This document shows positions 2,341 to 35,951 of a stretch of 64,000 bases of DNA, one piece after another; the stretch's first letter is position 1; each line of letters begins with the position of its first letter. The stretch comes from Candidatus Latescibacterota bacterium (lineage in GTDB: Bacteria > Krumholzibacteriota > Krumholzibacteriia > LZORAL124-64-63). A program made the position numbers and the translations under genes. The DNA lies in assembly GCA_030658975.1 (NCBI GenBank), contig JAUSBL010000002.1, positions 1-64,000 of the forward strand, read 5' to 3'. The notes under the pieces were generated by a model, which worked only from the letters and a program-made list of their open reading frames with translations, did no database searches and was not told the origin of the DNA.

Positions 2341-3144
2341 ATGTACCACAAGCTATGTGCCGTTCTCTGCCTGGTCGCGGCCGCGGTCCTGCTGCCGCCC
2401 GCGACCGCCGCGGCGCAGGGCGGCCTCGAGGTCGCCCTCGTCGAGTGGGAGACGCAGGGCGCCATGGTCGCCTTCCACATCCGGTTCCACAACGCGGGCA
2501 CCCAGACCACCGGAACGGCGACGGGCGAACTCTTCTCGCAGGAGTACGGCGCCTTCCTGCCCGACTTCGGCGTCATCGGCACCTTCGATGTGCCGCCCAT
2601 CCTGCCGGACAGCTTCTTCGACGTGTTCCTGGATGCCCCGCGGGAGGAACTGCCCCCCTCGGCCGCCGAGAACCTGCCCTGGCTCATGCCGACCGGGAAC
2701 AAGGACTACTGCGGGCCCGACGATCACTGGGACGGCAACGTGGACATCATCTGGTTCTTCAACGGCCTCCCCGGCGGCCAGGTCAACGCCCACTTCGGCA
2801 ATCTGCTGGTCTGCCCGGGCTTCGGCCACTCCTACATCCATGTGGTCACGATGTGCCCGGGGTGGGCCGGCTGGTGGTTCGCCGGCGTGTGCGCCGGCTG
2901 GAACGTGGCGCTGGTGAACGAGGACCTGTCGCCGGCGCCCAACCCGGTGCCGCCGGGCTGGAGCGGGCACATCGCCGTGTCGGCCGACGCGACCGTGGCC
3001 TTCGGCGCGGTCTGCTGCTTCGCGCTCAACTTCAACTGCGGCGGCGTCGTGACGCCGGTGAACCTCTGCGCGACGACCTGCGACTGCGGCGCGGTCGCCG
3101 ACGAGCCGACGAGCTGGGGCGCCATCAAGAGCATGTACCGGTGA
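2341..3144 (+). CDS. Secreted protein of unknown function with C-terminal TSWGAIKSMYR tail
   Basis: Signal peptide MYHKLCAVLCLVAAAVLLPPATAAAQG; Cys/Trp-rich body; last residues match tails of six other secreted proteins in the window. Confidence 0.8.
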   Translation: MYHKLCAVLCLVAAAVLLPPATAAAQGGLEVALVEWETQGAMVAFHIRFHNAGTQTTGTATGELFSQEYGAFLPDFGVIGTFDVPPILPDSFFDVFLDAPREELPPSAAENLPWLMPTGNKDYCGPDDHWDGNVDIIWFFNGLPGGQVNAHFGNLLVCPGFGHSYIHVVTMCPGWAGWWFAGVCAGWNVALVNEDLSPAPNPVPPGWSGHIAVSADATVAFGAVCCFALNFNCGGVVTPVNLCATTCDCGAVADEPTSWGAIKSMYR

Positions 3145-3160
3145 GGATCCGGTGACGGAT

Positions 3161-3186
3161 GGGGCGCGGCCGCCGGTCCGCGCCCC
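3161..3186. terminator. Hairpin between convergent genes
   Basis: ggggcgcgg...ccgcgcccc, 9-bp stem between the 3144(+) and 3190(-) stops. Confidence 0.45.
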
Positions 3187-3189
3187 GCT

Positions 3190-4482
3190 TCAGGCGGGCT
3201 TGCCCAGCAGCCGGAACATCTCGCGCTTGTAGGCCTCGACACCGGGCTGGTCGAAGGGGTTCACCCCCAGCAGGCGCCCGCTGACCGCCACGGCCTTCTC
3301 GAAGAAGAAGAGCAGCCCGCCGACGCTCCACTCGTCCAGCGTCGCCAGTTCCATGCCGATGGTCGGCAGCCCCCCCTCGCGGTGGGCGGCGCGCGTGCCG
3401 GCGAAAGCCCGGGCGTTGATGTCGTCCAGGGAGCGGCCCTCGAGGTAACCGAGGCCGTCGCCGCGATCCGCCGAGGCCGGCACGACCAGCGTGGAGTCGG
3501 TCTCGCGTACGGTCAGGAAGGTCTCGAACAGCTCGCGGCGGCCGTCCTGCAGGTACTGGCCGAGGCTGTGCAGGTCGGTCGTGAAGCGGCACGACGCCGG
3601 GAAGATGCCGCGGCCCTGCTTGCCCTCGCTCTCGCCGAAGAGCTGCTTCCACCACTCCTGCAGCGGCCCGAGGTCGCTGTGGAAGGTGCTGAGCACCTCG
3701 GTCGTGAAACCGGCCTCGTAGAGCCGGTGGCGCGCCACGGCGTAGAGGTGGGCGGGGTTGTCGGCGAGCACGGGGTTCTCGCAGGTCGCCGCCATGGCGG
3801 CGGCCCCGTCCAGCAGGCGGCGGACGTCCAGCCCGGCGACCGCCAGCGGCCACAGGCCCACCGGGGTCAGCACCGAGAAGCGACCGCCCACGTCGTCGGG
3901 GATCACATAGGTGTCCCAGCCCTCGGCGTCGGCCAGGGCGCGCAGGGCGCCGCGCGAGGCGTCGGTGATCGCGGTGATGCGGCGGCGCTCGCCCTCGCGG
4001 CCGTAGCGCTCCTGCAGCGCGGCGCGGAACAGGCGGAACGAAACGGCCGGCTCCAGTGTTGTACCGGACTTGGAGATCACGCACAGCCGCACGTCGCGTC
4101 CCTCGATGCGCCGCAGCAGGCGGCGCAGGCCGGCGGCGCACAGGTGCGTGCCGGCGAACAGGATCTCGGGTCCGGACGTGCGGTCGGTCAGGGCATGCAG
4201 GACGGCTTCGGCCCCCAGATAGGAACCGCCGATGCCGATCACCACCACGACGTCGCCGTCGCCCCTGGCCGCCTCGGCGGCGTCCCGCAGACGGTCCAGG
4301 TCGGGGCCGGCCGCGGTGCGCGGCAGGTCGAGCCAACCCAGGAAATCGGCGCCGGGACCCTCGCGGCGGGCCAGTTCCGCGCCGATCGTCCGCACGCGGT
4401 CGCCGCAGGCGTCGATCGCGCCGCGGTCGAGGAAGGGCTCCAGGCCCGTCAGATCGAGGGAAAGGGCGCGGACGTCCGGCAT
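3190..4482 (-). CDS. pgi: Glucose-6-phosphate isomerase
   Basis: VVVIGIGGSYLGAEAVLHAL, VISKSGTTLEPAVSFRLFR, DVGGRFSVLTPVGLWPLA, NPFDQPGVEAYKREMFRLLG; start chosen after GGAGG-like RBS. Confidence 0.95.
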   Translation of the reverse strand: MPDVRALSLDLTGLEPFLDRGAIDACGDRVRTIGAELARREGPGADFLGWLDLPRTAAGPDLDRLRDAAEAARGDGDVVVVIGIGGSYLGAEAVLHALTDRTSGPEILFAGTHLCAAGLRRLLRRIEGRDVRLCVISKSGTTLEPAVSFRLFRAALQERYGREGERRRITAITDASRGALRALADAEGWDTYVIPDDVGGRFSVLTPVGLWPLAVAGLDVRRLLDGAAAMAATCENPVLADNPAHLYAVARHRLYEAGFTTEVLSTFHSDLGPLQEWWKQLFGESEGKQGRGIFPASCRFTTDLHSLGQYLQDGRRELFETFLTVRETDSTLVVPASADRGDGLGYLEGRSLDDINARAFAGTRAAHREGGLPTIGMELATLDEWSVGGLLFFFEKAVAVSGRLLGVNPFDQPGVEAYKREMFRLLGKPA

Positions 4483-4651
4483 CGGTTCCTCCCGGCGGCA
4501 CCCGGCCGGAAACCTGGTCGCGGATTCCCGCAGGTGCGAAAGCTGCATGAGTGTATTAGCATTGCCCCTTGGCGCGTCGGGCGCGGCATCCTGCATTGTG
4601 AGCCAGACAACTCGAGGAGACAACTGGGTTCTTTGCGACCGCAACTCTGAA

Positions 4652-6817: not shown

Positions 6818-6891
6818 CATCGCCCGCGCGGGGCGCATCCTTGGGGCTGACCCGCGGCCCCCGGCTCCCATCCCTCGTCGACGGAGACCCC

Positions 6892-8133
6892 GTGCACGAC
6901 AGCCTCCCGACCGACGGCGACCGTACGGTCATCAGCGCCCACTACGCGGAGATCGCCCTGAAGGGCAAGAACCGCCACCTGTTCCTGCTGCGCCTGCGCA
7001 ACAACATGATGGCGCAATTGCGCGGCGAGCCCGTGGTCGCCATCAACCACATCGAGAGCCGCCTGCTGCTGCGCCTGGGCGACCCGGCCGCCGCGCTGCG
7101 CGCCGCCGCGAAGCTGCAGCGGGTGCCCGGCATCCAGAACCTGTCGCTGGCCGCGTCGGTGGCGCGCACCGGCGACGACGAGGCCGACCTGGACCACGCC
7201 GGCGCGATCGCCGCCGCGATGACCCGCCGCGAGGCGGGCGGCGCCCGCACCTTCAAGGTGGACACGCGCCGCTCCGACCGGGCGTTCCCGGTGCCCTCGC
7301 CGCAGATCAGCGCGCGCCTGGGCGCCGCGATCGTCATGGCGACCGCCCTGCCCGTGGACCTCCACGCTCCCGAGTTCACGGTCCACGTGCTGGTGATGAA
7401 GCGGGAGATCCTGATCTTCGCGCAGAAGCTGCCCGGCTGCGGCGGCCTGCCCGTCGGCTCCAGCGGCCGCGTCACGGTCCTGATGTCGGGGGGGATCGAC
7501 TCGCCGGTGGCGGCCTGGATGATGATGCGGCGGGGCTGCCGCCCCGAGTTCGTGCACTTCTACCCGGGGCGCGGCGTCGCCGAGGCCGACTCCGCCAAGA
7601 TCGAGCGCCTGGTCGCCGTCCTGGCCGGCTACGCCCCCCAGCCGCTGGTGCTGCACCTGGTGCCGTCCTACCCGTACGAGGCGCGCGCCGTGGGCGCGGT
7701 CGAGGACGCCTACGACATGGTGCTGTTCCGGCGCTACATGTTCAAGACGGCGGTGCGCTTCGCGCGGCGGGAGAACTGCCAGGCGGTGATCGCCGGCGAC
7801 AGCGTCGGCCAGGTCGCCAGCCAGACCCTGCCCAACCTCGCGGCGATCACCCCGGACATCCGGCTGCCGATCCTGCGGCCGCTGATCGGCATGGACAAGC
7901 TCGAGATCACCGCGCTGAGCCGCCGCATCGGCGTCTACGACATCTCCATCGAGCCGCACCGCGACTGCTGCTCGATCCGCTCGCCGCGGCCGGTGCTCAA
8001 CGCCCGCGCCGTGCACCTGCTGGAGCTGTCGGAACGGATCGGCCTGGACGAGGCGGTGAACGAGGCCCTGCACACCTCGACCAAGCTGCGGATCGGCCCG
8101 CAGGGCCGCGTCGCCGCGGAGCCGGAAGCCTGA
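6892..8133 (+). CDS. thiI: tRNA 4-thiouridine synthase (THUMP + PP-loop, no rhodanese domain)
   Basis: GTG start; YAEIALKGKNRHLF, VTVLMSGGIDSPVAAWMMMRRGCRPEFVHFYPGR, AVIAGDSVGQVASQTLPNLAAI. Confidence 0.93.
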   Translation: MHDSLPTDGDRTVISAHYAEIALKGKNRHLFLLRLRNNMMAQLRGEPVVAINHIESRLLLRLGDPAAALRAAAKLQRVPGIQNLSLAASVARTGDDEADLDHAGAIAAAMTRREAGGARTFKVDTRRSDRAFPVPSPQISARLGAAIVMATALPVDLHAPEFTVHVLVMKREILIFAQKLPGCGGLPVGSSGRVTVLMSGGIDSPVAAWMMMRRGCRPEFVHFYPGRGVAEADSAKIERLVAVLAGYAPQPLVLHLVPSYPYEARAVGAVEDAYDMVLFRRYMFKTAVRFARRENCQAVIAGDSVGQVASQTLPNLAAITPDIRLPILRPLIGMDKLEITALSRRIGVYDISIEPHRDCCSIRSPRPVLNARAVHLLELSERIGLDEAVNEALHTSTKLRIGPQGRVAAEPEA

Positions 8134-10488: not shown

Positions 10489-11559
10489 TCACCGATACAG
10501 GCTCTTGACCGCCCCCCAGCTCCGATCCTCGTTCGCCGCGGCCGTCGGTTGGAGGCCCGTCACCAACAGGTCGATCTCGTACTCGTAGGGCGTGGCGCCG
10601 GTGGGCGACATCGCACTGGCCGGCAGGATGTACAGCCGGACGACCGTGCCGGGATCCACAGCCACGTCGAAGCTGCCGGGTTCGCCGCGGCCGCCGTGCG
10701 CCGTGGCCAGGATATCCGGGTCGGAGCAGTCGTCGGACATCAGCGCCAGGACGGAGGTCGTCCAGTCGGCGTCGAACTCGCAGTGCAGCGATCCTTCCGG
10801 TCCCACCGTCACTTCCAGCCAGTCGGTGTCGAAGTCGAGCCCGTCGGTCCCGATGCGCCAGCCGGACTTCACGCACATGTGGACGGCTCCGTCGAGACCG
10901 CCGGCCAGCTCCTGGAAGAGCAACGACGAGGTGTTGCAGCCGCTGTTGTAGAGGTCCTGCGTGCCGTTCGCCAGGGGGGGCTCCCCCTCGGCCCGGATGC
11001 CGGGCGGGCAGTCCATGTCGTAGAACGAAGCCGCGTCGACGTCGAGCACGTAGTCGCCGGCGTCGTCGTCGTAGCCGTCGATCACGATGTAGTAGGTCGT
11101 CAGGCCCGAGAGTTCGAGAAATTCGATCTTCGACGCGAACGGCAGGCAGGCCGGATCGCCCGGCATGTAGAAATCGTCGCTGCACGCGACGACCTCGCCG
11201 GTGTCGTCGTAGACGAAGACCTTGGTGTCGTAGTCCGAGTGGCAGAGGTCGATCGAGATCGGGCCGCTCGAAGTCGGCGTGTAGGTGTAGACCACGTCGG
11301 GCGACTGGCTGCCTTCGAAGGGGCAGGCCTCGTCGTAGTCGTCGACGGCGCCGAGCGTCGTGCCGCTGTCCGAGTACGGCAGCGAGAGGATCTCCACGGC
11401 GGTCGCCATCGTGTCGCCGCCGACCCGCGACGAGGCGGGCGCGGGGGCGGTCGGTCCGCCGCCGTGGCGGGGCTTGGCGGAGAACGGGTCGGCGGCGGCC
11501 GGGGCGGCCATGGCCGCGCCGATCAGCAGCAGGGCGGGCAGCAGCAGCTTCGCATGCAT
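10489..11559 (-). CDS. Secreted PPC-like protein with C-terminal RSWGAVKSLYR tail
   Basis: Signal peptide MHAKLLLPALLLIGAAMAAPAAA; VGGDTMATAVEILSLPYSDSGTTLGAVDDYDEACPFEGSQSPDVVYTYTP; paralog of 11657..12709. Confidence 0.8.
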   Translation of the reverse strand: MHAKLLLPALLLIGAAMAAPAAADPFSAKPRHGGGPTAPAPASSRVGGDTMATAVEILSLPYSDSGTTLGAVDDYDEACPFEGSQSPDVVYTYTPTSSGPISIDLCHSDYDTKVFVYDDTGEVVACSDDFYMPGDPACLPFASKIEFLELSGLTTYYIVIDGYDDDAGDYVLDVDAASFYDMDCPPGIRAEGEPPLANGTQDLYNSGCNTSSLLFQELAGGLDGAVHMCVKSGWRIGTDGLDFDTDWLEVTVGPEGSLHCEFDADWTTSVLALMSDDCSDPDILATAHGGRGEPGSFDVAVDPGTVVRLYILPASAMSPTGATPYEYEIDLLVTGLQPTAAANEDRSWGAVKSLYR

Positions 11560-11656: not shown

Positions 11657-12709
11657 CTACCGGTACGCGGCCTTGATCTCACCCCAGCTCGACGCCTCGT
11701 TCGCCGTGGTCGTCGCCTGGCCCGTCACGGTCAGGTGGAGGTCGTACTCCAGGGGCAGGATGAAGCCGGGATCGACTTCGGGCGACGGGGACAGCACGAT
11801 CCACACCGGCGTGCCCGGGGCGAGCGGGATGTCCAGCACGGCGACCTCGCCTGGTACCGCCGCGACGAAGCCGTAGTACTCGGCGAACTCGCAGCTGGTC
11901 GCCAGCACGACGAGCTCCGATGGCCACTCCGTCACCAGTTCGCAGTGGAGCTGCCCGTCTGGACCGACGGCGGTCGCGATCCAATCGAATTCGCGCGCGC
12001 TGCCGCCGGGGATGCCGTTCCAGCCGGAGCGGAAGCAGGCGAAGGTCGTGCCGGCGGGGTCGATGCCGAGCTTCTGGAAGCGGGCCGGCGGGTTCGCGCA
12101 GAAGCAGCCGCAGTTGTACGCGTCGTCGATCCCGTACACCATCGGCGGCTCGCCTTCGACCTGGGCGCCGTCGGGGCAGTCCAGCTCGGGGCTGTCGGTG
12201 ACGGACACCGACAGGGCGTAGTCGCCGCTGTTGCCGCCGTAGCCGTCGATGATGATGTAGTAGGGGATGCCAGCCTCGAGCAGCAGGACGTCGATCCGCG
12301 AGTCCAGCCCGCTGCACGGCGTTTCCGCGTAGGGGTTGTCGTCGTTGCAGGCCACCAGGTTCCGCAGGTAGTCGTAGACGAAAACGCGGGTGTCGTAGCC
12401 CGAGCCGCAGAGGTCGATTGCGACGTACGTGTCGAACGACTGCTTGATGGCGTAGACCACGTCCGGCGAATCGCTGCCGTCCCAGGGGCAGATCTCGTCG
12501 TAGTCGTTGTTCGCACCGGCGGTGGAGCCCGTGTCGGCGTAGGGCAGCGTGAAGATGCCCACGGCGGTCTCGATGGTGTCGCCGCCGATGCGCGGGACGG
12601 CGGTCGGCGTCCCCGGCGCCGCGAGCCGCGTCTTGGCGGGTGCTGCGGGGCCGGCCGCGGCCGCGGCCGCGAGGAACAGGACCGTGCAGGCGAGGGCTGT
12701 CGTTTTCAT
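11657..12709 (-). CDS. Secreted PPC-like protein with C-terminal SSWGEIKAAYR tail
   Basis: Signal peptide; IGGDTIETAVGIFTLPYADTGSTAGANNDYDEICPWDGSDSPDVVYAIK; tandem paralog of 10489..11559. Confidence 0.8.
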   Translation of the reverse strand: MKTTALACTVLFLAAAAAAGPAAPAKTRLAAPGTPTAVPRIGGDTIETAVGIFTLPYADTGSTAGANNDYDEICPWDGSDSPDVVYAIKQSFDTYVAIDLCGSGYDTRVFVYDYLRNLVACNDDNPYAETPCSGLDSRIDVLLLEAGIPYYIIIDGYGGNSGDYALSVSVTDSPELDCPDGAQVEGEPPMVYGIDDAYNCGCFCANPPARFQKLGIDPAGTTFACFRSGWNGIPGGSAREFDWIATAVGPDGQLHCELVTEWPSELVVLATSCEFAEYYGFVAAVPGEVAVLDIPLAPGTPVWIVLSPSPEVDPGFILPLEYDLHLTVTGQATTTANEASSWGEIKAAYR

Positions 12710-12909
12710 CGCCGTGGCTCCTTCGTGGGCGACCGCGAGGATCGTACCACGGCGGCGGCGGGTGTCCAGAGCCCCATCGGAACGATCCGATTTTGTATTC
12801 TGGTTCTCAATGTGTTATCATTAATCAACTTTGGGGCGGATTCGCCCGCCGCCCCAATAGTCAGACCCGGCATCCGCCTGCCCGGATCCTCACCCGAAGG
12901 ACGTACCCG

Positions 12910-14919
12910 ATGACCCGCTTTCGCCCACTGCTCGCGCTCGCCGCCCTGTTGCTGTTCGCCGCACCCTGCCTGGCCCAGAGCCTGGATGTCGGCGGCTGGA
13001 AGCTCGAACAGGCGAACTCCGCCCAGACCTACACGATCCCGGCCGGCACCGTGGTGCCGGCGGGCGGTTACCTCATCGTGGCGCGCGACGCGACCGCGGC
13101 CGCGTTCGCGACCTACTACGGGGTCACCCTCGGCAGCAACGTGGTGTTCCTGAACTCGGCGGCCACGTTCCCCTTCATCAACGGGGACGAGACGTACACC
13201 CTGAGGAACGCGGCGAACGGCGTCGAGGACGGGCCTACCCCCGCGCTCACCAACGAGGTGCGCGCCTACCACCGGCTGGATCCCGAGGCATCGCCCTGGA
13301 CCGTCATCAACACCGCCCCGACCCCGGGCTCCGGTGTGGAGGCTCCCGACGCCGTGATGTCGGGCCTGGTGATCAGCGAAGCGAACAACCCCGCCAGCTA
13401 CGCCTACGAGTACATCGAGCTGTACTACGACGGCTCGACCGGCACCTCGAACCAGCACCCCGTCATCTCGTCGATCCAGCACGCACCCGTCGCCCCGTCC
13501 GACGGCGACGACGTCACGATCACCGCGACGGTCACCGACGCCGACGGCGCCGTCGACGTGGTCTGGTGCTGGTCGCGCACGGGCGCCGGCTCGTTCCTGC
13601 CCACGGTCATGACCGCCCAGGGCGGCGGCCAGTACGCCGCGACCTTCGCGAACCAGGTCGGCAACACGGTCCTGCAGTACTACGTCTGGGCGCGGGACGA
13701 CGAGGGCGCCGAGTCCCTGAACCCGGCCAACGCCCCGGCGGGCTACTTCTCCGTCGCGATCGAGGGCGTCGTGGTCGGCGGCAAGGTCGTCCTCTTCGAC
13801 CACATGCACGCCCAGGACGCCGGCTCCAACGGCAACTGGCGCGTGGACGACAACCATCCCAACCCGCTGCCGGCCACCCCGACGAGCGAAACCTCCTGGA
13901 GCGGCCAGCTGTCGAGCTGGGGCTACGAGCTCTGGCTCGCCGGCAACACCATCCGCAGCAACACCTCGGCGATCACGGCGGCCCAGCTGGCCGACGTCGA
14001 CCTGCTGGTGATCCCGGAGCCGCAGGCCCCGTTCACGGCGGCCGAGATCGAGGCCGTGCGCCAGTTCGTCTTCGCCGGCGGCTCGCTCTTCGTGGTGGCC
14101 GACCACAACGGCAGCGACCGCGACGGCGACGGCTGGGACAGCCCCAGCATCTTCGGCGGCTACTCCGTGCCGCACATCACGGTGCCCCCGACCAACGACA
14201 CCGAGACCTTCTGCGGCGCCCTCTTCGGTCTGCACTTCCACGTGAAGGACGAGGGCAACAACGCGATCACCGGCACCTTCGCCAACGTGAACGACGACCC
14301 GGCCAACCCGGTGATCCACGGCCCCTACGGCGAGGTGGCGGCCGTCATCTACCACGTCGGCAACGTGATGAGCCTGTGGCCGACCGCCAACCCCCACCTC
14401 TCGGACGTGGGCGCCCTGATCAGCAAGAACGAGGGCTCGCCCCACGTCGCCGCCTGGTCGCGCTACGGTCAGGGCAAGATCGTGGGCTACGGCGACTCCT
14501 CGAGCACCGCCGACGGCACCGACAGCGAATCCCACGAGAACAACTGGACCGAGGCCGGCTCGGACAACCGCGAGTTCTTCCTGAACGCCAGCGCCTGGCT
14601 GCTGGCCTCCGACGCCACCGCGGTCGGCGAGCTGCCGCTCAACCCGGGCCTCGACCTGCGGGTGCGGCCCAACCCGTTCAACCCGCAGACGAGCATCGCC
14701 TTCACGCTGCCGGCCGAGGGGCCCGCCCGCGTGGCCGTCTACGACCTGCAGGGACGCCTGGTGCGCACGCTGCACGAGGGCGACCTGGCCGCCGGTCCCC
14801 ACGCCCTGGCCTGGGACGGCCGCAACGACGGGGGGCGCGCCGCCGCCAGCGGCGTCTACCTCGTGCGGGCGGCGGGGGGCGGGTTCGTGAACATCACCAA
14901 GGCGGTCCTGGCGCGGTAG
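12910..14919 (+). CDS. Secreted lamin-tail-like / GATase-like protein with FlgD-like C-terminal domain
   Basis: Signal peptide; GWKLEQANSAQTYTIPAGTVVPAGGYLIVARDA (LTD-like); RPNPFNPQTSIAFTLPAEGPARVAVYDLQGRLVRTL...WDGRNDGGRAAASGVYLVRA. Confidence 0.85.
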   Translation: MTRFRPLLALAALLLFAAPCLAQSLDVGGWKLEQANSAQTYTIPAGTVVPAGGYLIVARDATAAAFATYYGVTLGSNVVFLNSAATFPFINGDETYTLRNAANGVEDGPTPALTNEVRAYHRLDPEASPWTVINTAPTPGSGVEAPDAVMSGLVISEANNPASYAYEYIELYYDGSTGTSNQHPVISSIQHAPVAPSDGDDVTITATVTDADGAVDVVWCWSRTGAGSFLPTVMTAQGGGQYAATFANQVGNTVLQYYVWARDDEGAESLNPANAPAGYFSVAIEGVVVGGKVVLFDHMHAQDAGSNGNWRVDDNHPNPLPATPTSETSWSGQLSSWGYELWLAGNTIRSNTSAITAAQLADVDLLVIPEPQAPFTAAEIEAVRQFVFAGGSLFVVADHNGSDRDGDGWDSPSIFGGYSVPHITVPPTNDTETFCGALFGLHFHVKDEGNNAITGTFANVNDDPANPVIHGPYGEVAAVIYHVGNVMSLWPTANPHLSDVGALISKNEGSPHVAAWSRYGQGKIVGYGDSSSTADGTDSESHENNWTEAGSDNREFFLNASAWLLASDATAVGELPLNPGLDLRVRPNPFNPQTSIAFTLPAEGPARVAVYDLQGRLVRTLHEGDLAAGPHALAWDGRNDGGRAAASGVYLVRAAGGGFVNITKAVLAR

Positions 14920-16145: not shown

Positions 16146-16916
16146 ATGACCACGATGCTCGAGACACGACGAGTCGCCGCGATGGCGGCCCTGCTCCTGA
16201 TCCTGGCGACCTCGTGCTGCGGCGCCGCCGAGGTGCGGCTGGCCGACGGCCGCACGCTCACCGGCACGCTGAGGCCGATCGACGACGCCACGTACCTGCT
16301 GCAGACCGACGACGCGCTCTTCGAGCTGGAGGGCAGCCAGATCCGCGAAGTCGACGGCCACCGCGAGCTGCCGCGGCCCGGGGAGACGCGCCTGGTGCGC
16401 TCCTCCTGCTACGAGGTCCTGCGCGCCGACGGCATCGCCGAGACCTGGAACACCATCCACGTCGAGAACGGCGGCCGCGCGCTTCAGACCCGCGTCGAGT
16501 GGGGCGTCGCCCCCCACGAGATGGAGACGTTCCGCACGCTGAAGGTCGTGGACCCCTGGGGCAACGCGCTGGCCCACCGTTTCGAGCCCCGGCCGGGCAG
16601 CGACGTCCAGAGCGTGATCGTCGAGCTCGCGGTGCCCGTCCTGCCAGGCGAGAGCGTCGAGCTGGCGACCAGCACGATCCGCCCGCGCAGCTCCGTCAGC
16701 GACGGCGACCTGTGGACCTGCACCTACCCCGGCGACTTCTCCGAAGACCGCCTCTACAGCCGCCTGCTGCGCCTGCCGCCGGGGGCCGAGGTCGTCTCGG
16801 TCGAACCCGAGGTCCGTGTCCACGAGCACGACGGCGCCTCGTTCGTGAACTGGCGGCGCTACTACCCGAAGGGGTCGACGTACCCGCTGACGGTGAAGTA
16901 CCGGCTGCCGGGCTGA
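16146..16916 (+). CDS. Secreted protein of unknown function, third gene of ECF operon
   Basis: Signal peptide MAALLLILATSCCGAAEV; LADGRTLTGTLRPIDDATYLLQTDDALFELEGSQIREVDG. Confidence 0.75.
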   Translation: MTTMLETRRVAAMAALLLILATSCCGAAEVRLADGRTLTGTLRPIDDATYLLQTDDALFELEGSQIREVDGHRELPRPGETRLVRSSCYEVLRADGIAETWNTIHVENGGRALQTRVEWGVAPHEMETFRTLKVVDPWGNALAHRFEPRPGSDVQSVIVELAVPVLPGESVELATSTIRPRSSVSDGDLWTCTYPGDFSEDRLYSRLLRLPPGAEVVSVEPEVRVHEHDGASFVNWRRYYPKGSTYPLTVKYRLPG

Positions 16917-16942
16917 CCGGGCCGATGCCGGGAGGGTCGGAT

Positions 16943-16978
16943 CGCGATGCCGGCGCCGGTCGCCGGCATCGCGTTTTT
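16943..16978 (+). terminator. Rho-independent terminator
   Basis: cgcgatgccggcg-ccggt-cgccggcatcgcg followed by tttttct. Confidence 0.85.
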
Positions 16979-17098
16979 CTTCCCATGACGAGGCGATCAT
17001 GTATCATCGGCGCCATGCACGAACCCGCCCCCGCCATCGGGGAGGATCCACCGACCATCACCCGATCCCATGGTCTTCCACGGAGGGAAGGTACCGCC

Positions 17099-20000
17099 AT
17101 GCCGCGCCTCACGATGTTCGCCGTCGCGCTCGCCGTCCTGCTCCCGGCGGCAGGCGACGTCCTGGCCATCGACTGGGATTGTCCCGACGACACCCGGCAC
17201 CTGAGGTGGACGGCGTCGCTGCCGCTGGGGTACGGCGCCCGCGACCTCGCGATCGTCGGTGCGACGGCCTGGGTCGCGGGCGGCGACGGCAGCCTCTACG
17301 CGGTCGACGTCGCCGACCCGCTGGCGCCGGCGGTCGTCGGCAGCCTCTTCACCGGCGGCGCCGCGATCGCGGTCGTCGCGCGCGACGGCTTCGCCTACGT
17401 CGCCGGCGGCGACGAGGGCCTGCAGATCGTCGACGTGGGCGACCCCCTCGCGCCGGCGCTCGCCGGTTCGCTCGACCTGCCCGGCTACTGCGAGAACCTG
17501 GTCCTGGACGGCGGCTGCGCGCTGGTGGCCGCGGGCGACCAGGGCCTGCTGATCGTCGATGTCTCCGATCCGGCGGCTCCCGCGCTGCTGGGCTCCGTCG
17601 CCACGTCCGGCTGGGCGCTGAACGTAGCCGCGGCGGGGACCTGGGCCTACATCGCCGATGCGTCAGGAAGACTGCAGGCGGTGGACCTCGCCGACCCGTC
17701 CGCGCCCGTGCTCGCCGGCTGGGCGGAGACCCCCGAGTCGCCGCAGGACGTCGCGATCGCCGGCGGCCGCGCCTTCGTGGCCTGCGGCGCCGCGGGCGTG
17801 GCGGTCTACGATCTCGCCGATCCCGCCGCGCCGGTGCTGATCGAGGTGACCGGCGTGCCGGGCCAGGCCCGCGCGTTGCTCATGGAAATCGACCTGTGCT
17901 GGGTCGCCGCGGGAACCGGGGGCGCCTGCGCCGTCTCGACGGCCGATCCTGCTGCGCTGCAGGTCCTGCTCGGCCTGGACACGCCGGGGGACACGCGGGC
18001 CGTGGCGCTGGGGGACGCCCACGTCTTGCTGATCGACGAGACCGGCGGGCTGCAGGTGCTGGCGCGGTGGCGGACGGCGGATCCGCAGATCGTCGGGCAG
18101 CTCCTGTTCCCTTCGTTGGGCATCTTCGGGGTCACGGCGTTCGGCGAGAACTACGCGCTCGCCGGCGGCGGTTATGCGGGGCTTCTCGTCATCGACACCA
18201 CCGTCGCCTCATCGCCTACCGTGGTGGCGACGGCCGACACGCCGGGCATGGCGGAGTACGTCTTCGTGGCAGGCGATCTGGCCTACATCGCCGACAGAGG
18301 CGCGGGCCTAGCCATCGTTGACCTCTCCGATCCGCTGTCGCCGACGCTGTTATCATCGATCGACACACCCTACTCAGCCACGCGAGTCGTGGTCGAAGGC
18401 GATCTGGCTTATGTCTCGGACATGAACGGCCTGCAGATCATCGACGTGAGCGATCCAGTCAACCCATTCAACGTCGGTTCCCTCACCGGTCGTTGTGATG
18501 CCCTGGAGACTGTTATCCATGGCAATTATGCCTACGTCGAAAGTTCGCCCGAGAGCCTGCAGGTGATCGACGTGAGCGACCCCGCCCTCCCGCGCATCGT
18601 CGAGTCGATCCGGATCCGGTACTTGTCCGCAATCGCGAACGACGGGCCGTGGCTGTATCTCGGTACGGGCAACAGCCAAGGTCCGAACTTCTTCATCATG
18701 GACACCACAGACCCCACGCATCCAGTCCAGGTGTCGAGTCTCGATGCGGGTCGGTGCGTGACCGACATCGACCTGACCGGCGGCATCGCCTGGCTGGCCG
18801 GAGGCATGGACCTGGTGGCCGTGAACGTCAGCGACCCGGCGGCGCCGATGATCATGGACCGGGCGCCGACTTCCAATTACCTCCTTTACCTCGACGTGGC
18901 AGGCGACCGCGCCTACGCGACCCACAGCTACGGGACCGGGGAATTCCGCCTCGTCGTCGCCGACCTCAACCTCGGCACCACCCTGCCGACGACCCTCGCC
19001 ACCCTCGACATCCCCGGCGACGCCCGCGCCGTCGAGCTCGCCGGCGACTACGCCTTCGTCGCCGACGGCTACGACGGGCTGCAGGTGCTGGACGTCGGCG
19101 ACCCGTCGGCGCCCGTCCTGGTCGCCTCGGCCGACACGCCGGACTTCGCCCACGGTCTGGACGTCGCCGACGGCCACGCCTACTTGGCCGACTTCGGTTC
19201 CGGCCTGCAGGTCTTCGACGTCGGCGACCCGTCGGCGCCGGCCCTCGTCGGCGCGGTCGACCTGCCCGGCGAGACCCTGGGCGTGGCGGTCGCCGGCGGC
19301 TACGCCTACGCGGGGTGCGGACCCGCCGGCCTGTTCGTCGTCGACGTGAGCGATCCCGCGCTGCCACAGGTCGTCGGCGCCGTGGACACGCCCGACTGGG
19401 CGACGGGCGTGGGCTGCTTCGGCGATTACGTCTACGTGGCCGACGGGCACAGCGGCCTGTTCGTCATCGACGTCGCCGATCCCGCGTCGCCCGCGATCGT
19501 CGGCAGCCTGGACCTGCCCGAGGCCGCCGTCGACCTGGAGGTGCGGTGGCCGCTGGTCTACGTCGCCGGCCACTGGGCCGGCCTGTTGATCGTGGACGTG
19601 AGCGACCCGGCCGCGCCGCACGTCGTGGGCTCGTACGACACCCCGGACATCGCGCGCGACGTCGTGGTGGCCGGCGGCTACGCCTACGTGGCCGAGGAGA
19701 CCGGCAGCGTGCAGGTGATCGACATCACCCAGCCGACGGCGCCGACGTTCGTGGCCGGGCTGACGGCGCCGCCGATCTCCTACGGCATCGCCACCGCCGG
19801 CGACCTGGTGATGGTCGCCTGCGGCGAGGCCGGCGTGGTCACGGCCCGGCGTCAGTGCCTGGCGGACGTCACCGCGACTCCCGAAGCGAGTCCGCCTCGG
19901 CCGGTGCGCTTCGCCAGCCCGTACCCGAACCCGTTCAACCCGCGCACGACCCTGTCGTTCGCGCTCGAGGCCCCCGGGATGGTCGAACTGACGGTCCACG

Positions 20001-20176
20001 ACCTCGCCGGCCGCGAAGTGGCGCGCCTGGTCGACGGGCTGCGCCCCGCCGGGATCGGTTCGGCCGTCTGGTCGGGTCGCGACGCGCAGGGCCGCTCGGT
20101 TCCCTCGGGCGTCTACGTGGCGAGGCTCGAGGCGGCGGGCGTCGTCGCGACGCACAAGCTCGTCCTGCTGAAGTAG
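17099..20176 (+). CDS. Secreted LVIVD-repeat beta-propeller protein with FlgD-like C-terminal domain
   Basis: Repeated blocks such as YVAGGDEGLQIVDVGDPLAPALAGSLDLPG / LLIVDVSDPAAPALLGS; C-terminus SPYPNPFNPRTTLSFALEAPGMVELTVHDLAGREVARLVDG...GRDAQGRSVPSGVYVARL. Confidence 0.93.
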   Translation: MPRLTMFAVALAVLLPAAGDVLAIDWDCPDDTRHLRWTASLPLGYGARDLAIVGATAWVAGGDGSLYAVDVADPLAPAVVGSLFTGGAAIAVVARDGFAYVAGGDEGLQIVDVGDPLAPALAGSLDLPGYCENLVLDGGCALVAAGDQGLLIVDVSDPAAPALLGSVATSGWALNVAAAGTWAYIADASGRLQAVDLADPSAPVLAGWAETPESPQDVAIAGGRAFVACGAAGVAVYDLADPAAPVLIEVTGVPGQARALLMEIDLCWVAAGTGGACAVSTADPAALQVLLGLDTPGDTRAVALGDAHVLLIDETGGLQVLARWRTADPQIVGQLLFPSLGIFGVTAFGENYALAGGGYAGLLVIDTTVASSPTVVATADTPGMAEYVFVAGDLAYIADRGAGLAIVDLSDPLSPTLLSSIDTPYSATRVVVEGDLAYVSDMNGLQIIDVSDPVNPFNVGSLTGRCDALETVIHGNYAYVESSPESLQVIDVSDPALPRIVESIRIRYLSAIANDGPWLYLGTGNSQGPNFFIMDTTDPTHPVQVSSLDAGRCVTDIDLTGGIAWLAGGMDLVAVNVSDPAAPMIMDRAPTSNYLLYLDVAGDRAYATHSYGTGEFRLVVADLNLGTTLPTTLATLDIPGDARAVELAGDYAFVADGYDGLQVLDVGDPSAPVLVASADTPDFAHGLDVADGHAYLADFGSGLQVFDVGDPSAPALVGAVDLPGETLGVAVAGGYAYAGCGPAGLFVVDVSDPALPQVVGAVDTPDWATGVGCFGDYVYVADGHSGLFVIDVADPASPAIVGSLDLPEAAVDLEVRWPLVYVAGHWAGLLIVDVSDPAAPHVVGSYDTPDIARDVVVAGGYAYVAEETGSVQVIDITQPTAPTFVAGLTAPPISYGIATAGDLVMVACGEAGVVTARRQCLADVTATPEASPPRPVRFASPYPNPFNPRTTLSFALEAPGMVELTVHDLAGREVARLVDGLRPAGIGSAVWSGRDAQGRSVPSGVYVARLEAAGVVATHKLVLLK

Positions 20177-22014: not shown

Positions 22015-22968
22015 CTAGTACAGGCTCTTGACCTGGCCCCAGCTCATTTCCTCGGTCTCGACCGGGATGGTCAGGTACGAGGTCAGGCCGTTGGCGGTCC
22101 AGGCCACGGCGCTGTTGTCGGCCACCTTGGGCGCGTCGTAGTTGGGATGGTTGACGATCTGCAGCTCGGCGTTGACCATCAGGTTGTTGAAGGTCGTCAT
22201 CTGCAAGGTGTACAGCAGGCCCGGGTCGGTGCCGAACACGGGCAGGTAGCTGTACAGGCCGATTTCCACGCCGGTCGTCAGGCTGCCGAAGATCAGGCCA
22301 TCGACCGGGGTCGCGCTCAGGATCATGATGCGCGGGTCCAGGACCAGCTTGAAGGCGGCGCCGCCGACCATCATCTCGGCGTTGCGGATCATGATCCAGG
22401 CGTTGTGGATCTCGGTGAAGCCACCGTTCTGGGTCGACACGGTCTCGATGCCGTCCTCGTCCCAGAACACGCCGATCTCGGGCGTCGGGCGCAGCGTGAT
22501 GCTCGAGGTCAGGCCGTCGGCCGGGAACAGGATGGCCGACGAGTTCGCCAGCATGGGCGTGTCGTAGTCCGGGTCGGCGACGATGGTCTGGTGCGAGTTC
22601 ACGATCATCGTCGGCGAGAACACCTGGATGTGGCAGATCGAGATGGGATCGTCGCCGAACTGCGCGATCGGGTTGTAGAGGCCGATCTCGGCGCCGGTCA
22701 GCAGCGTGCCGAACACCAGGCCGTCGGCCCAGGTCTCGCTGACGATCATGAAGCCGCCCTCGGACTCCATCTTGAAGGCCGCTCCGCCGATCAGCAGGTC
22801 GGAGTTGTTGATCAGGACGTAGCCGTCATAGACCGATCCGGGTTCGCCGACGAGCTGGGCGGTGTTGCCCTCGGTGTCGAAGAACAGGCCGATCGTCGCG
22901 GTCGCCATCGCGGACGAGGCCAGGCCGAGCATCAGGACGCCGGCCAGCAGGCTGTAACGAGTCTTCAT
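22015..22968 (-). CDS. Secreted protein with internal duplication and C-terminal MSWGQVKSLY tail
   Basis: Signal peptide MKTRYSLLAGVLMLGLASSAMA; repeated units ...LLIGGAAFKMESEGGFMIVSETWADGLVFGTLLTGAEIGLYN... / ...MMVGGAAFKLVLDPRIMILSATPVDGLIFGSLTTGVEIGLYS... Confidence 0.8.
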   Translation of the reverse strand: MKTRYSLLAGVLMLGLASSAMATATIGLFFDTEGNTAQLVGEPGSVYDGYVLINNSDLLIGGAAFKMESEGGFMIVSETWADGLVFGTLLTGAEIGLYNPIAQFGDDPISICHIQVFSPTMIVNSHQTIVADPDYDTPMLANSSAILFPADGLTSSITLRPTPEIGVFWDEDGIETVSTQNGGFTEIHNAWIMIRNAEMMVGGAAFKLVLDPRIMILSATPVDGLIFGSLTTGVEIGLYSYLPVFGTDPGLLYTLQMTTFNNLMVNAELQIVNHPNYDAPKVADNSAVAWTANGLTSYLTIPVETEEMSWGQVKSLY

Positions 22969-30667: not shown

Positions 30668-30721
30668 TTCCTCTTCCTTCCAGCAGTGCAGGCGGGGGTC
30701 GAGAGGGCGAGGCGCCGCTGA

Positions 30722-31360: not shown

Positions 31361-31507
31361 GGCACGCTCGTGGTTGAGGACATGCCGAACTGGGCGATCG
31401 GAGAAGAAGATCGGCAGGCGATCCTCACGGTTGAGCAGAAAATGCGGTGATCGGCAGAGGGGTGCCCGGGGCCCTGGGCGGTCCCCTTCGGCCTTCAGGT
31501 CGCGGGA

Positions 31508-32098
31508 TTACTGCGAATACAGGTTTTTGACCTCGCCCCAGGTCCCCTGCTCGTCGGCGTCGCCGTTGTTCAGGGTGAACACGGGCCGGTCGAAGTCGCC
31601 GCTGCAGACGGTCGCGGGCGTATTGACCCCGAGCGTGTGGAGGTAGCCGGGCGTCCCGTCGGGGAAGCTGGCCGAACCGGGCGCCGGCCCCACCTTGAAG
31701 AACAACGGGCCCTCTCCCAGCAGCTTCACGGTCATGTAGAGCAGCGGCACCATGCCGGCGCTGTTCGGCATCAAGCCGTCCACGCCCAGTCCCACCAGAA
31801 AATCGTCAGTATCGTTGTCGAAATCCATACCGGCGGTCAGTGTCCAGTTGCCCACATAGGTGGCCGACCCTTCGACGGTCACGCGGGCTTCCCAGCCCAG
31901 AACCGGCGATCCCGAAGGCTGGGCGAGCACCAGATAGACGGTGCAGGACCCCGGCACGGCCACCTCGACATTCCCGCCGCCGGGCCCGGACGTAACGTCG
32001 GTGCAGATGCAGAACACGTCGGACTCGGCCGAAGCGGCGGCGGCCGCGCCGAGCGTCAGCACGAAGACGAGTACGAGGGCGGGGCGTGGGTAACGCAT
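31508..32098 (-). CDS. Secreted protein (FCIC...domain) with C-terminal GTWGEVKNLYSQ tail
   Basis: Signal peptide MRYPRPALVLVFVLTLGAAAAASA; FCICTDVTSGPGGGNVEVAVPGSCTVYLVLAQPSGSPVLGWEARVT; paralogous to 35304..35951 and to the N-terminus of 32205..34526. Confidence 0.8.
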   Translation of the reverse strand: MRYPRPALVLVFVLTLGAAAAASAESDVFCICTDVTSGPGGGNVEVAVPGSCTVYLVLAQPSGSPVLGWEARVTVEGSATYVGNWTLTAGMDFDNDTDDFLVGLGVDGLMPNSAGMVPLLYMTVKLLGEGPLFFKVGPAPGSASFPDGTPGYLHTLGVNTPATVCSGDFDRPVFTLNNGDADEQGTWGEVKNLYSQ

Positions 32099-32204
32099 CG
32101 GCATCCCTCCGGCGTCGGGCGGTGGCGGTCCGCGATTACCTTACAGAAAAGAGGGCGGCGGGACAAGCCGCAGCTGCCCCGCCGCCCCGCGACCGCCCGG
32201 CGGC

Positions 32205-34526
32205 TCAGCGCACCAGGCTCAACCTCACCACCGCGCCCGACGCGGCCCCGTCCACGTACAGCGCCGCGAAGTACGCGCCGCTGGCGACGTCGCGGCCCCG
32301 CTCGTCGGTGCCCAGCCACGTGACGCGGTTCTCCCCTGCCACGCCGTCGATCGCCCCGAGCCGCTTCACCACGCGGCCCTGCACGTCGTGGATCCGCACC
32401 TCGGCCCTGCCGGCCCGCGGCAGCGTCAGCACGATCTCGGTGCGCGGGTTGAACGGGTTCGGCACCGCGCGCAGCGCGCAGCGCCCCGACGGGATCTCCG
32501 GCGCGCCGGTCGACAGGTCCGGCGTGCGCAGGCGCACGATCACCGGTACGGCGCCGACGTCGAGGGTCAGGCTCGACTGTGCACGCATCGACATCACCGC
32601 GACGCGGTTCTGGTGGGGCAGGTAGACCTGCAGGTCCTCGTGGCCGCCCCACTCCGCGGCGTCCCAGCGCAGCGTGACCGGACCGGGCGCAGGCGCGGTG
32701 ACCACGAGGTCCCAGGCCACGTCCGCTTCGGTCGCCGCGCGGTAGTCGGCCGTGAGCTGGTCTCCGGTGCTGAGGTCCAGGGCCGAGCCGTCGAGCCACA
32801 GTTCGGGCCGGGACACGGCGGCCGGCGCGCGCGGCGGGCGGGGCTGGTCCCAGGCGGGGTCGAAGCCGTCGTTGGCCTTTTCGAGGCGCCCGACGGTCAG
32901 GGTCTCGGGGCTGCCGTCGAGGCCGAGGCTCAGGCGCCAGTTGAGGTCGTTGGGCTCGAAGGCGGGAGGGGCGGACTTGTCGGCGCCGATGTTGGTGTAG
33001 TGGAACCACAGGCTGACGCCGTTCATGTAGGCGGGCACCCAGTAACCGTGCCAGGGATGGAGAGTGGTCCGGGCCACGTAGGAGCCCGTCGAGTTCTGAT
33101 AGAAATAGACGTAGCTCCCGACGAGTCCCATCTGGACCGCCGTCGCGTAATCGTAGCGCGCGCCCTGGTACTCGACCGCGACATCGTTGAGGCTCATGAC
33201 CGTCCACAGCGGCGCGCCGAGCAGGTTCCAGCCGTTGGCCAGGGGCAACAAGGCGCCGTTGAGGTCACGCATCCCCTCCATCGTCCAGGTGATGGGGCTG
33301 GTCGCGCCCACCCAGTAGCCCCGGCCCTGCTGCATGGGGTCGGTCGACAGCATCTGCTGGTAGCCCGTATTTCCGTTGTGGCCGTAGACGAACGCGGTGC
33401 TGGCGATGTCGTCCAGCAGCACGGAGCCGATGGTGCCCGGCGCGTCCGGCAGCAGGGGCATGCCCACCAGGGACCAGCCGGTCGGCAGCAGGAGTGACGT
33501 CGGACTGAGAGGTGGGATCTGGTTCGGCCCCACCAGCAATTCGAAATGACGGACCTGCCCGGGCACGGAATTGAACGAATAGCTGAGGGCCGTTTCCCAG
33601 AGAAGCGCAACCTCGCCCGTGTCGAGGTCGATCAGTGTCATCACCCAGTTCGACGCCTGATTGAAGCTGGGCTGGAACGTAAGCGTCGCGACACCGCTCT
33701 GGTCGGTCAGGAAGCGCAACGGCCAGGTCTTGACCGTGGCCGACGGCACATAGGAGGCCCGGATGTCCGTCCGGAAGAACTCGCCCAGCGGCGAAGCCCA
33801 CTCCGCATGCGGGAAGCACAGCGAAACGTAGCCCGCAGGCGGGGCCGGCGGTTCGGGGATGTCCAGGTTCGGATCCAGCCCGTCCGTCGCGGTCTCCCCC
33901 ATGCCGGCGACATTGTTCAGATCACGGTACGCGCCGAGCGCCGCCGCGACCGTCAATGTGAATTCGTCCTCGAAGGGCGGAGGATTGTTCCCGTTGATGC
34001 TGAAGACCGGCGAATTGAAATCGCCGCCGCACACGGTCGCCGGCGTGTTGTAACCGAGCGTGTGCACGTAGCCGGGGGTGCCCTGGGGAAAGGAGACCGA
34101 TCCCGGGATCGGCCCGATGAAGAATTCGATGCTGGCGCTGCCGTTCACGATGATGGCCTGCATCGAACCCAGCACGATGACGTCCTGCGCGTTGGGGACC
34201 AGCGGCGAAGCCCCGTTGCCGATGACGAAATCCTGGGGGTCGCTGTCGACGTCCAGTCCGGACATCATCCACGTGCCGATCATGCTCGTGGCATTCGTCT
34301 GGGTGATCCTGGCCTCCCAGGCCAGAACGCGGCCGCCGCTCGGATTGAGAAGGCACAGGTAGATGTTCGTCGGCACGAAGATCGGGATGTCGGCGTTGCC
34401 GCCGCAGCTGGCGGGGGCCGTCGGGTCGATGCAGATGCAGAAGGCGTCCTGCTGCGCGAGGGCGCCGCCGGCCGTGGTCAGCAGGACCATGGCGATCGTC
34501 AGCAGGAAGCGGATCGAAGTTCGCAT
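32205..34526 (-). CDS. Secreted multidomain protein with FlgD-like C-terminal domain
   Basis: N-terminal FCICIDPTAPASCGGNADIPIFVPTNIYLCLLNPSGGRVLAWEARIT; middle region homologous to 34600..35178; C-terminus RAVPNPFNPRTEIVLTLPRAGRAEVRIHDVQGRVVKRL...GTDERGRDVASGAYFAAL. Confidence 0.88.
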   Translation of the reverse strand: MRTSIRFLLTIAMVLLTTAGGALAQQDAFCICIDPTAPASCGGNADIPIFVPTNIYLCLLNPSGGRVLAWEARITQTNATSMIGTWMMSGLDVDSDPQDFVIGNGASPLVPNAQDVIVLGSMQAIIVNGSASIEFFIGPIPGSVSFPQGTPGYVHTLGYNTPATVCGGDFNSPVFSINGNNPPPFEDEFTLTVAAALGAYRDLNNVAGMGETATDGLDPNLDIPEPPAPPAGYVSLCFPHAEWASPLGEFFRTDIRASYVPSATVKTWPLRFLTDQSGVATLTFQPSFNQASNWVMTLIDLDTGEVALLWETALSYSFNSVPGQVRHFELLVGPNQIPPLSPTSLLLPTGWSLVGMPLLPDAPGTIGSVLLDDIASTAFVYGHNGNTGYQQMLSTDPMQQGRGYWVGATSPITWTMEGMRDLNGALLPLANGWNLLGAPLWTVMSLNDVAVEYQGARYDYATAVQMGLVGSYVYFYQNSTGSYVARTTLHPWHGYWVPAYMNGVSLWFHYTNIGADKSAPPAFEPNDLNWRLSLGLDGSPETLTVGRLEKANDGFDPAWDQPRPPRAPAAVSRPELWLDGSALDLSTGDQLTADYRAATEADVAWDLVVTAPAPGPVTLRWDAAEWGGHEDLQVYLPHQNRVAVMSMRAQSSLTLDVGAVPVIVRLRTPDLSTGAPEIPSGRCALRAVPNPFNPRTEIVLTLPRAGRAEVRIHDVQGRVVKRLGAIDGVAGENRVTWLGTDERGRDVASGAYFAALYVDGAASGAVVRLSLVR

Positions 34527-34599
34527 GGATGACCTCCGTTACGGGGATGGGTCCGCCGCATGACGCGGCTGGCCGGTTCGGATACCGATTCGATGGCGA

Positions 34600-35178
34600 T
34601 CAGCGATCGTAGAGCTTCTTGATCTCGCCCCAGGCGGCTGTGTCCGCCGCGACCGGGTCGTCGGACGTCAACTCCAGCAGCAGCGTCGTGACGGGCGCCA
34701 GCGCCACGAAGGGCAGCTGCGCCGGCAGTTCGACGCGGTACGCCCGCTCCGGGGGCGCCAGGATCGTCACGGCCAGCGGGTACTGCGCGCCGATCTCTGC
34801 GGCGAAGTCCAGCAGCAAGGGCCGGTTGACCTGGTCGGTCTCCAGGACCAGTTCCCAGGTCTCGGTCTGATCCATGAAGATCTCCGAGGGGCGCAGCTCG
34901 TGGCGCCAGCGGTTCGGCAGGACTTCCGGAGCGTCCGGCATCACGAAGGACAGGCCCAGATAACCGCCGGGGGGCGGCGGCGGCTCCGGCAGATCGTAGC
35001 CGTCCGGGCCCATCAGGGCGTCGTCGTGCACGCCGAAGCGGTGGATGTCGGAGACGACCGCGTCGCCGTGCGCCTGCAGCGTGATGACGATCGACTGGGA
35101 AAGCGCCGTTGCGGGGGCGAGAACGGCGAACCAGGCCAGGAGCGCGAGGGGCGGGATGACCAGACGCCGATGATGCAC
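34600..35178 (-). CDS. Secreted protein with C-terminal AAWGEIKKLYDR tail
   Basis: GTG start after GGAG; signal peptide; FGVHDDALMGPDGYDLPEPPPPPGGYLGLSFVMPDAPEVLPNRWRHELRP resembles the mid-domain of 32205..34526. Confidence 0.75.
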   Translation of the reverse strand: MHHRRLVIPPLALLAWFAVLAPATALSQSIVITLQAHGDAVVSDIHRFGVHDDALMGPDGYDLPEPPPPPGGYLGLSFVMPDAPEVLPNRWRHELRPSEIFMDQTETWELVLETDQVNRPLLLDFAAEIGAQYPLAVTILAPPERAYRVELPAQLPFVALAPVTTLLLELTSDDPVAADTAAWGEIKKLYDR

Positions 35179-35303
35179 GACCGACTCCTATCCGCGTGGG
35201 TGCGGAGGCGTCCGCGGCGGTTCGGGTGTCATATCGGGCGATTTGACCCGCCGATGTTACCAAATCGAAAGCCAGATTACAATACTACGCTGTGAGGGGC
35301 TGT

Positions 35304-35951
35304 TCACCTGCCCGCAGACGGGCCCGCCGAATACGCACTCTTGATCGCACCCCAGGTATCGACGTCCGCCGCGACGACGCCATTGATGCTGAACACCGGC
35401 TCGTCGAAGTCGCCGCTGCAGACGGTGGCTGGTGTGTTGAATCCCAGCGTGTGGACGTAGCCCGGAACGCCCTGGGGGAAACTGATGGAGCCGGGGATCG
35501 GGCCGACGAAAAAACTGACCGGGACGCCGTCATCCAGGACCCTGACCATCATGGAGGCGAACGTGATGACGCCCGCTGCGTTCGGCTGCCAGGGCGCGGG
35601 GCAGGAGCCGACCACGAAATTCCCAGGCACGGAGTCGACATCCAAACCGCCGTTGAGGCACCACTCGCCAGAGATGGTATCGGCTCCTCTGTCGTCGGTC
35701 ACTCGGGCTTCCCAGGCCAACACCTGATCCCCGCTGGGTTCGAGCAGGCACAGCCAGATGGGCGTCGGCACGCCGACGGGGATCACGGCATTGCCGCCGC
35801 AGGTGTTCGGGTCCGTGGGATCGAGGCAGATGCAGAAGGCGTCCTGCTGCGCCGAGGCGCCGCCGGCCGCCGCCAGCACCGCGATGACGAGAAGAGGGAT
35901 GAACGGGATGCGGCTGTGCGTGAGAGCATTCCAAGGACGCCGATGATCCAC
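35304..35951 (-). CDS. Secreted protein (FCIC...domain) with near-C-terminal DTWGAIKSAY motif
   Basis: GTG start after GGGAG (no in-frame ATG before the signal peptide); QQDAFCICLDPTDPNTCGGNAVIPVGVPTPIWLCLLEPSGDQVLAWEARVT...DVDTWGAIKSAYSAGPSAGR. Confidence 0.78.
   Translation of the reverse strand: MDHRRPWNALTHSRIPFIPLLVIAVLAAAGGASAQQDAFCICLDPTDPNTCGGNAVIPVGVPTPIWLCLLEPSGDQVLAWEARVTDDRGADTISGEWCLNGGLDVDSVPGNFVVGSCPAPWQPNAAGVITFASMMVRVLDDGVPVSFFVGPIPGSISFPQGVPGYVHTLGFNTPATVCSGDFDEPVFSINGVVAADVDTWGAIKSAYSAGPSAGR

Follow-up and report, generated by a model that had tools for sequence, protein, structure and literature searches.

Seven secreted proteins encoded in a 64,000-nucleotide stretch of a Candidatus Latescibacterota genome (contig JAUSBL010000002.1, positions 1 to 64,000; hereafter the window), which GTDB assigns to Krumholzibacteriota, end in the same short peptide. 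We found this C-terminal tag, with the consensus E-x-x-[ST]-W-G-x-[IV]-K-x-[LM]-Y-R, to be common to hundreds of otherwise unrelated secreted proteins from at least three bacterial phyla. A sequence-only reading had proposed the seven tails as a candidate new sorting or attachment signal, and our results support the proposal, with a function that the sequences suggest. The tag is very probably a sorting or targeting tag of some kind, which we favor because the same end is found on unrelated secreted bodies, lies at the extreme C-terminus and is exchanged with a known export domain. As to its route, we lean slightly towards a minimal class of C-terminal sorting signal for export to the cell surface or the medium by the type IX secretion system (T9SS).

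A short C-terminal tag on unrelated secreted proteins

A logo built from 216 non-redundant tags reads [VTS]-[PA]-[VTN]-E-[ED]-x-[ST]-W-G-x-[IV]-K-[AS]-[LM]-Y-R-stop, with the tryptophan (position 0) and the lysine present in 100% of the tags, the glycine in 94%, Y or F at +7 and R or K at +8. Because our search patterns fixed W, G, K, Y and, in part, R, the positions outside this selection carry most weight: E at -4 (57%), S or T at -1 (91%) and A or S at +5 (69%). A single residue follows the aromatic one in 195 of the 216 tags. The tag comprises ~10 conserved residues and the whole targeting region ~20. No hydrophobic segment is seen in the last 23 residues of the logo, which bears out what had been read from the window.

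The hydrophobic residues W0, I3, L6 and Y7, together with the S or T ahead of the tryptophan, suggest an amphipathic helix with a cap. The helical moment averages 0.54 (0.39 for shuffled tags) and the strand moment 0.47 (0.38 for shuffled tags), so that this statistic alone is not decisive. In an AlphaFold2 model of the tagged protein at 11657..12709 (mean predicted local distance difference test score, pLDDT, of 75), two β-sandwiches are followed by a linker at residues 331-341, with pLDDT <50 at 335-341, and by a helix at residues 342-349 that is itself of low confidence. The tag is predicted to be a short helix behind a disordered linker, in which Pro, Val and Glu occur. A Foldseek search with this model was informative on the body alone.

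The genome is rich in GC and in overlapping long open reading frames (ORFs), which would favor chance, the choice of reading frame or a repeated DNA element as the origin of the shared ends. A six-frame scan of the window with W[GA]x[ILVMF][KR]xx[YF] returned seven matches only, each 0-8 residues ahead of a stop codon. The stop-free DNA pattern TGGGSNNNNVTNARRNNNNNNTWY, which encodes W-G-x-[ILVM]-[KR]-x-x-[YF], matched 52 times in the window's own genome (G000, 3.23 Mb) versus once for the reversed pattern that served as control, and a stop codon follows in frame 0-12 residues after the motif in 51 of these 52 matches. Across 29 genomes of several phyla, a stop-free pattern gave 31 matches at 29 loci, 26 of them ≤7 residues from a stop. 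Third codon positions differ freely among the copies, so conservation acts on the peptide and not on a DNA element. With these controls, the position at stops, the free third codon positions and an occurrence in three phyla, there is virtually no chance of such an artefact, and we reject it.

Signal peptides were called with two crude predictors, not SignalP, on genes called by simple scripts. They were present on 48 of 50 tag ORFs of the window's genome versus 75 of 200 background ORFs taken from 300 kb elsewhere in this genome (Fisher p = 2.8e-15), so that secreted and non-secreted proteins do not bear the tag at equal frequency. This contrast is conservative because the crude predictor also counts some membrane proteins. 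The two tag ORFs without a signal peptide (at loci L007 and L008) are both short and may be truncated or frame-shifted.

The bodies ahead of the tag are highly diverse. When 101 tag proteins were aligned, W and K were invariant and the mean column identity was 6%. After removal of the ends, 221 bodies formed 100 clusters, of which 67 had a single member; the 45 bodies from the window's own genome were spread over 31 clusters. Pfam and NCBIfam matches on the bodies comprise β-helix, LTD, pre-peptidase C-terminal, laminin G, NHL, choice-of-anchor E/J/X, ScyF-like and ExeM-like families. No Pfam or NCBIfam model lies on the tail of the 101 proteins (best 25 of 28 and 25 of 27 families), and a longer known domain common to the bodies does not account for it. 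Body families of the choice-of-anchor, LTD, β-helix, ScyF-like and ExeM-like type carry other sorting tags elsewhere, as is partly reflected in the names of the models.

Two other explanations we judge highly improbable. The tag could merely be the C-terminal helix of each folded body; against this stand the 100 body clusters that carry it and the disordered linker modelled ahead of the helix. It could also be a periplasmic processing or degradation signal. Short C-terminal peptides can indeed steer periplasmic proteases, but the marking of tens of adhesin-like proteins per genome for destruction is implausible.

Exchange with the type A C-terminal domain

Homologous bodies terminate in either the tag or a type A (FlgD-like) C-terminal domain (CTD) of the T9SS. 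In the window, the tagged protein at 31508..32104 lies next to an untagged sister of 773 residues (32205..34526, minus strand), whose N-terminal body corresponds to it with 43-46% identity over 149-182 residues and which closes with a FlgD-like (T9SS type A-like) domain at residues 686-773 (~32208..32471). The end of this sister scores 31.1 bits with PF13860 (cut-off 27) and 18.6 bits with TIGR04183 (cut-off 23), and matches the PorZ C-terminal region model NF052228. At locus L107, an LTD body is tagged in one gene, and the neighboring gene scores 26 bits with TIGR04183, over the cut-off. Likewise, β-helix bodies are tagged at L127, L161 and L173, and a homologue at L148 reaches 42 bits with TIGR04183 and 29 bits with PF18962, both over the cut-offs. 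For 34 tag proteins from 11 body clusters, the few loci that we retrieved also encode a homologue with a FlgD-like CTD at its end.

None of 222 tag proteins carries both ends. The sequence-only reading had set the tag apart from T9SS CTDs and FlgD-like domains, a distinction that stands, with no model match and no protein bearing both; it had missed that the tag replaces the FlgD-like domain on sister bodies. This replacement is the strongest hint to function. The idea that the tag is the far end of a FlgD-like CTD was rejected on the same count (0 of 222), one regular-expression match being an NHL repeat. Both types of end have a basic residue after hydrophobic ones: K or R is the last residue of 60 of 94 FlgD-CTD ORFs, 202 of 222 tags and 142 of 734 others, part of the tag set having been selected for K/R.

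The exchange also bears on whether the tag might be a docking peptide, through whose helix secreted proteins would bind one another or a common scaffold in a dockerin-like manner once they had been exported by a tag-independent route. The presence of a short, amphipathic helix behind many small bodies of the adhesion type would suit this role. No partner domain was seen, however, and because the tag and the type A CTD are mutually exclusive and share a slot, a mere docking site is not what one would expect, which leaves this explanation quite improbable.

Over ~1.1 Mb of loci, the neighbors of tag genes are mostly other tag genes and FlgD-CTD genes, and no recurrent enzyme was found among them. 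In the window, all seven ORFs and their C-terminal sequences are exactly as the sequence-only reading had quoted them, and the crude predictors confirmed a signal peptide on each. The protein at 2341..3144 (plus strand, 267 residues) has no Pfam match and ends in SWGAIKSMYR (W to end at 3115..3141). The other six are encoded on the minus strand. Those at 10489..11559 (356 residues, ending in SWGAVKSLYR, W to end at 10492..10518) and 11657..12709 (350 residues with two predicted β-sandwich domains, ending in SWGEIKAAYR, 11660..11686) have homologous bodies with 41% identity. The protein at 22015..22968 (317 residues) ends in SWGQVKSLY (22018..22041), and a similar tagged protein is encoded at locus L003. 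For the tagged neighbor of the FlgD-like sister, which ends in TWGEVKNLYSQ (31511..31540), the tail was read correctly; the start can lie two codons earlier, which changes 31508..32098 into 31508..32104 and gives 198 residues. It shares 48% identity with its homologue at 35304..35951 (215 residues), where TWGAIKSAY is followed by SAGPSAGR (35307..35354). Between them, at 34600..35178, lies a protein of 192 residues with a GTG start that ends in AWGEIKKLYDR (34603..34632). The seven bodies had been placed in at least four apparently unrelated groups, and we found five, namely the two homologous pairs and the single proteins at 2341, 22015 and 34600. FlgD-like CTDs, read directly from the sequence, close further ORFs at 12640..14919 and 16214..20176 on the plus strand and a large one of 1489 residues at 36119..40588 on the minus strand.

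Distribution, T9SS genes and the route of tagged proteins

The distribution of the tag was followed in genomes that are mostly metagenome assemblies. In the window's phylum, Krumholzibacteriota, 79 of 80 genomes match a stop-including pattern, with up to 48 copies and reversed controls near zero. Each of 20 out of 20 genomes of Effluviviacota (the phylum of G085, including an Effluviviaceae genome) carries 27-82 tags, and at least 4 are present in 35 of 47 genomes of Eisenbacteria (the phylum of G104, a label borne by four members), with no control matches in either phylum; one Eisenbacteria group has 0-3 tags per genome. The tag is thus far from absent in relatives, many of which hold tens of copies. 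Latescibacterota are tag-poor, with 0-2 tags in most of 64 genomes. A search of GTDB genome contigs gave at least 114 stretches; among the matches listed, nearly all were labelled Eisenbacteria, Krumholzibacteriia/-ota, Effluviviaceae or unnamed bacterium, the remainder being a few Latescibacterota, one each of Aegiribacteria and Poribacteria, and some apparently erroneous labels.

Public metagenome-assembled genomes (MAGs) labelled Latescibacterota CS4-C107 (L140), Fibrobacter sp. IMS_BF (L167) and Gemmatimonas sp. SW.020 (L192) look mislabelled. For the first, the SprA coordinates of genome G096 are identical to those of G031, which belongs to the window's class; the other two encode close orthologues of proteins from the window's genome. 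Contigs of the IMG/VR viral collection (L077, L083, L084 and L085) also encode tagged secreted proteins and may represent bacterial contamination or prophage flanks.

Genes for SprA, PorV-family proteins and PorU-like sortases are present together with the tag. SprA (TIGR04189) was found in 35 of 35 tested genomes, in 33 of them over the cut-off, and in 0 of 14 controls; the SprA of the window's genome scores 475 bits and matches PDB structures 6h3i/6h3j. The PorV family is represented in 20 of 20 genomes by 8-19 genes each. A PorU-like sortase is likewise encoded in 20 of 20 genomes (17 over the cut-off), often adjoining a PorV gene, and that of the window's genome scores 397 bits, under the cut-off of 420. 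Such an adjoining pair is located at G000:C39:6494-10949 (L224) in this Krumholzibacteriota genome, and PorU-like and SprA genes were also seen in the tested genomes of Eisenbacteria, Effluviviacota, Latescibacterota and Aegiribacteria. Por-type domains have reportedly been noted in some other phyla, possibly including Poribacteria and Kryptonia. According to one review, the T9SS is confined to Bacteroidota (PMC10202324).

Being present and handling their sisters, the T9SS suggests itself as the machine for the tagged proteins. In the mechanism that we propose, the tagged protein would be exported by Sec, and in the periplasm its exposed helix with the terminal arginine would be recognized as an alternative to the type A CTD. 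The T9SS, through the SprA translocon and a PorV-family shuttle, would then translocate the protein through the outer membrane, so that it reaches the surface or the medium. Recognition by the T9SS and by a shuttle, as well as this final location, are steps that we infer.

Several observations weigh against T9SS-dependent export. Among the families listed, the tag proteins match neither type A nor type B CTD models, and the predicted fold of the tag differs from theirs. SprA and PorV are present in tag-poor Latescibacterota too and do not discriminate; SprA, found in every genome tested, is uninformative in this respect. Tag genes have no excess of PorV genes in their vicinity (4 over 1.1 Mb of loci; the PorP/SprF family was not searched for), and the PorV copy number does not follow the tag number across 20 genomes. 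No tag came from Bacteroidota among the GTDB matches listed, no direct search of that phylum having been made. Finally, tandem tag proteins at L170, L176 and L095, from Eisenbacteria and one further MAG, have lipoprotein-like signal peptides (GGCS, LGCS), and some tagged proteins may therefore be lipid-anchored as well.

The candidates examined included no tag-specific partner gene. One PorV branch (L273, corresponding to G000:C24:6649-7488) was sampled in tag-rich lineages and was absent from the sample of G100 and G102; being confounded by phylogeny and by weak matches left unsampled, it is a weak lead. The PorV-family gene at G000:C24:6649-7488 is followed by an ExbB/TolQ-like gene and two ExbD/TolR-like genes (L223:6447-11895).

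The tag might instead be a sorting or anchoring signal that is read by a dedicated receptor and does not depend on the T9SS. Such a signal would keep proteins exported by Sec at the surface, at the outer membrane or in the periplasm, so that a lineage would choose for the same body either T9SS export, through a FlgD-like CTD, or a second address. That one body can bear either end would be explained equally well by two destinations and by two routes. The difference between the tag and the CTDs in sequence and predicted fold, the lipoprotein-like tag proteins and the lack of a link to PorV genes are in line with this, as is the nearly single-copy tag protein of Latescibacterota, which adjoins an LpoB/FlgT-like envelope protein in a conserved cluster. 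However, no candidate receptor is tied to tag number or presence, and SprA is encoded in every tag-rich genome tested; we regard a receptor of this kind as somewhat unlikely. We also deem it unlikely that a separate, so far unnoticed sorting machine in at least three phyla vies with the T9SS for shared body families, in which case the exchange of C-termini would send one protein family to two addresses.

The Latescibacterota protein is secreted and ~155 residues long; its body varies, whereas its end is constant, STWGK[IV]K[DE]LF[RK] or near it (L333:1554-2009, L334:1345-1800, L338:1460-1930, L339:4139-4621, L340:1537-2031, L341:4144-4665 and L342:1352-1825). Its cluster comprises galU, larA, the LpoB/FlgT-like protein, the tag protein, in many cases an acyltransferase, and a TolB-like lipoprotein. 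Among the loci sampled from tag-rich phyla, which span part of those genomes, this LpoB/FlgT-like protein was not seen. In Latescibacterota, the tag may exist in its ancestral or in a dedicated form.

Krumholzibacteriota, Eisenbacteria and Effluviviacota have few or no cultured members. In these phyla, tens of proteins per genome are marked by the tag as extracellular or envelope proteins, and many 'hypothetical proteins' become a predicted secretome. Current annotation misses it because no curated family model that we found covers the tag. If the T9SS route is true, the tag would be a very small export signal and would make the recognition step of the T9SS testable with a peptide; if it is false, tag-bearing bacteria would possess a second outer-envelope sorting route.

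Comparison with known sorting signals

Our literature searches returned no description of such a signal. Its closest counterpart is the T9SS type A CTD (TIGR04183, PF18962), which like the tag is C-terminal on Sec-exported proteins, on the same body families, in the same genomes and often in neighboring genes. That domain is a β-sandwich of usually 70-80 residues, unlike the far shorter and predicted helical tag, and its short form measures 40-51 residues (PMC11969387). The AlphaFold2 model of 11657..12709 contains no β-sandwich of 40-80 residues at the C-terminus, where it has the linker and the low-confidence helix. Neither TIGR04183 nor PF18962 is among the families listed for the 101 tag proteins, within the same best matches as above, whereas untagged sisters match.

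Several classes of T9SS CTD with their own shuttles have been described (PMC10202324, PMC12618676). The type B (TIGR04131/PF13585) and type C (ChiA type) CTDs resemble the tag in being alternative signal classes, possibly with a shuttle each; they extend over ~100 residues with several motifs (PMC10202324). Type B cargo genes adjoin a PorP/SprF shuttle gene (PMC10202324), unlike the tag genes, which are not clustered with PorV-family genes, and TIGR04131/PF13585 are not among the families listed for the 101 tag proteins. In the CTD of Hbp35, only the last 22 residues are absolutely required, according to a citing passage in PMC11969387. This is a precedent that a C-terminal stretch of a length similar to that of the tag may suffice for T9SS export, but in Hbp35 it consists of the last two CTD strands (motifs D and E) and not of W-G-x-I-K.

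The PEP-CTERM, GlyGly-CTERM, MYXO-CTERM and LPXTG signals share with the tag a short C-terminal homology on many unrelated secreted proteins, the same logic of discovery and body families of the ScyF-like, ExeM-like and choice-of-anchor types. The matches listed include whole-protein models of such bodies and no tail model of any of these signals. All of them combine a hydrophobic segment that spans the membrane with a basic cluster, whereas the tag lacks any hydrophobic segment. A short amphipathic helix at the C-terminus also serves as the address label in encapsulin or microcompartment targeting peptides; these act in the cytoplasm, whereas the tag proteins carry signal peptides.

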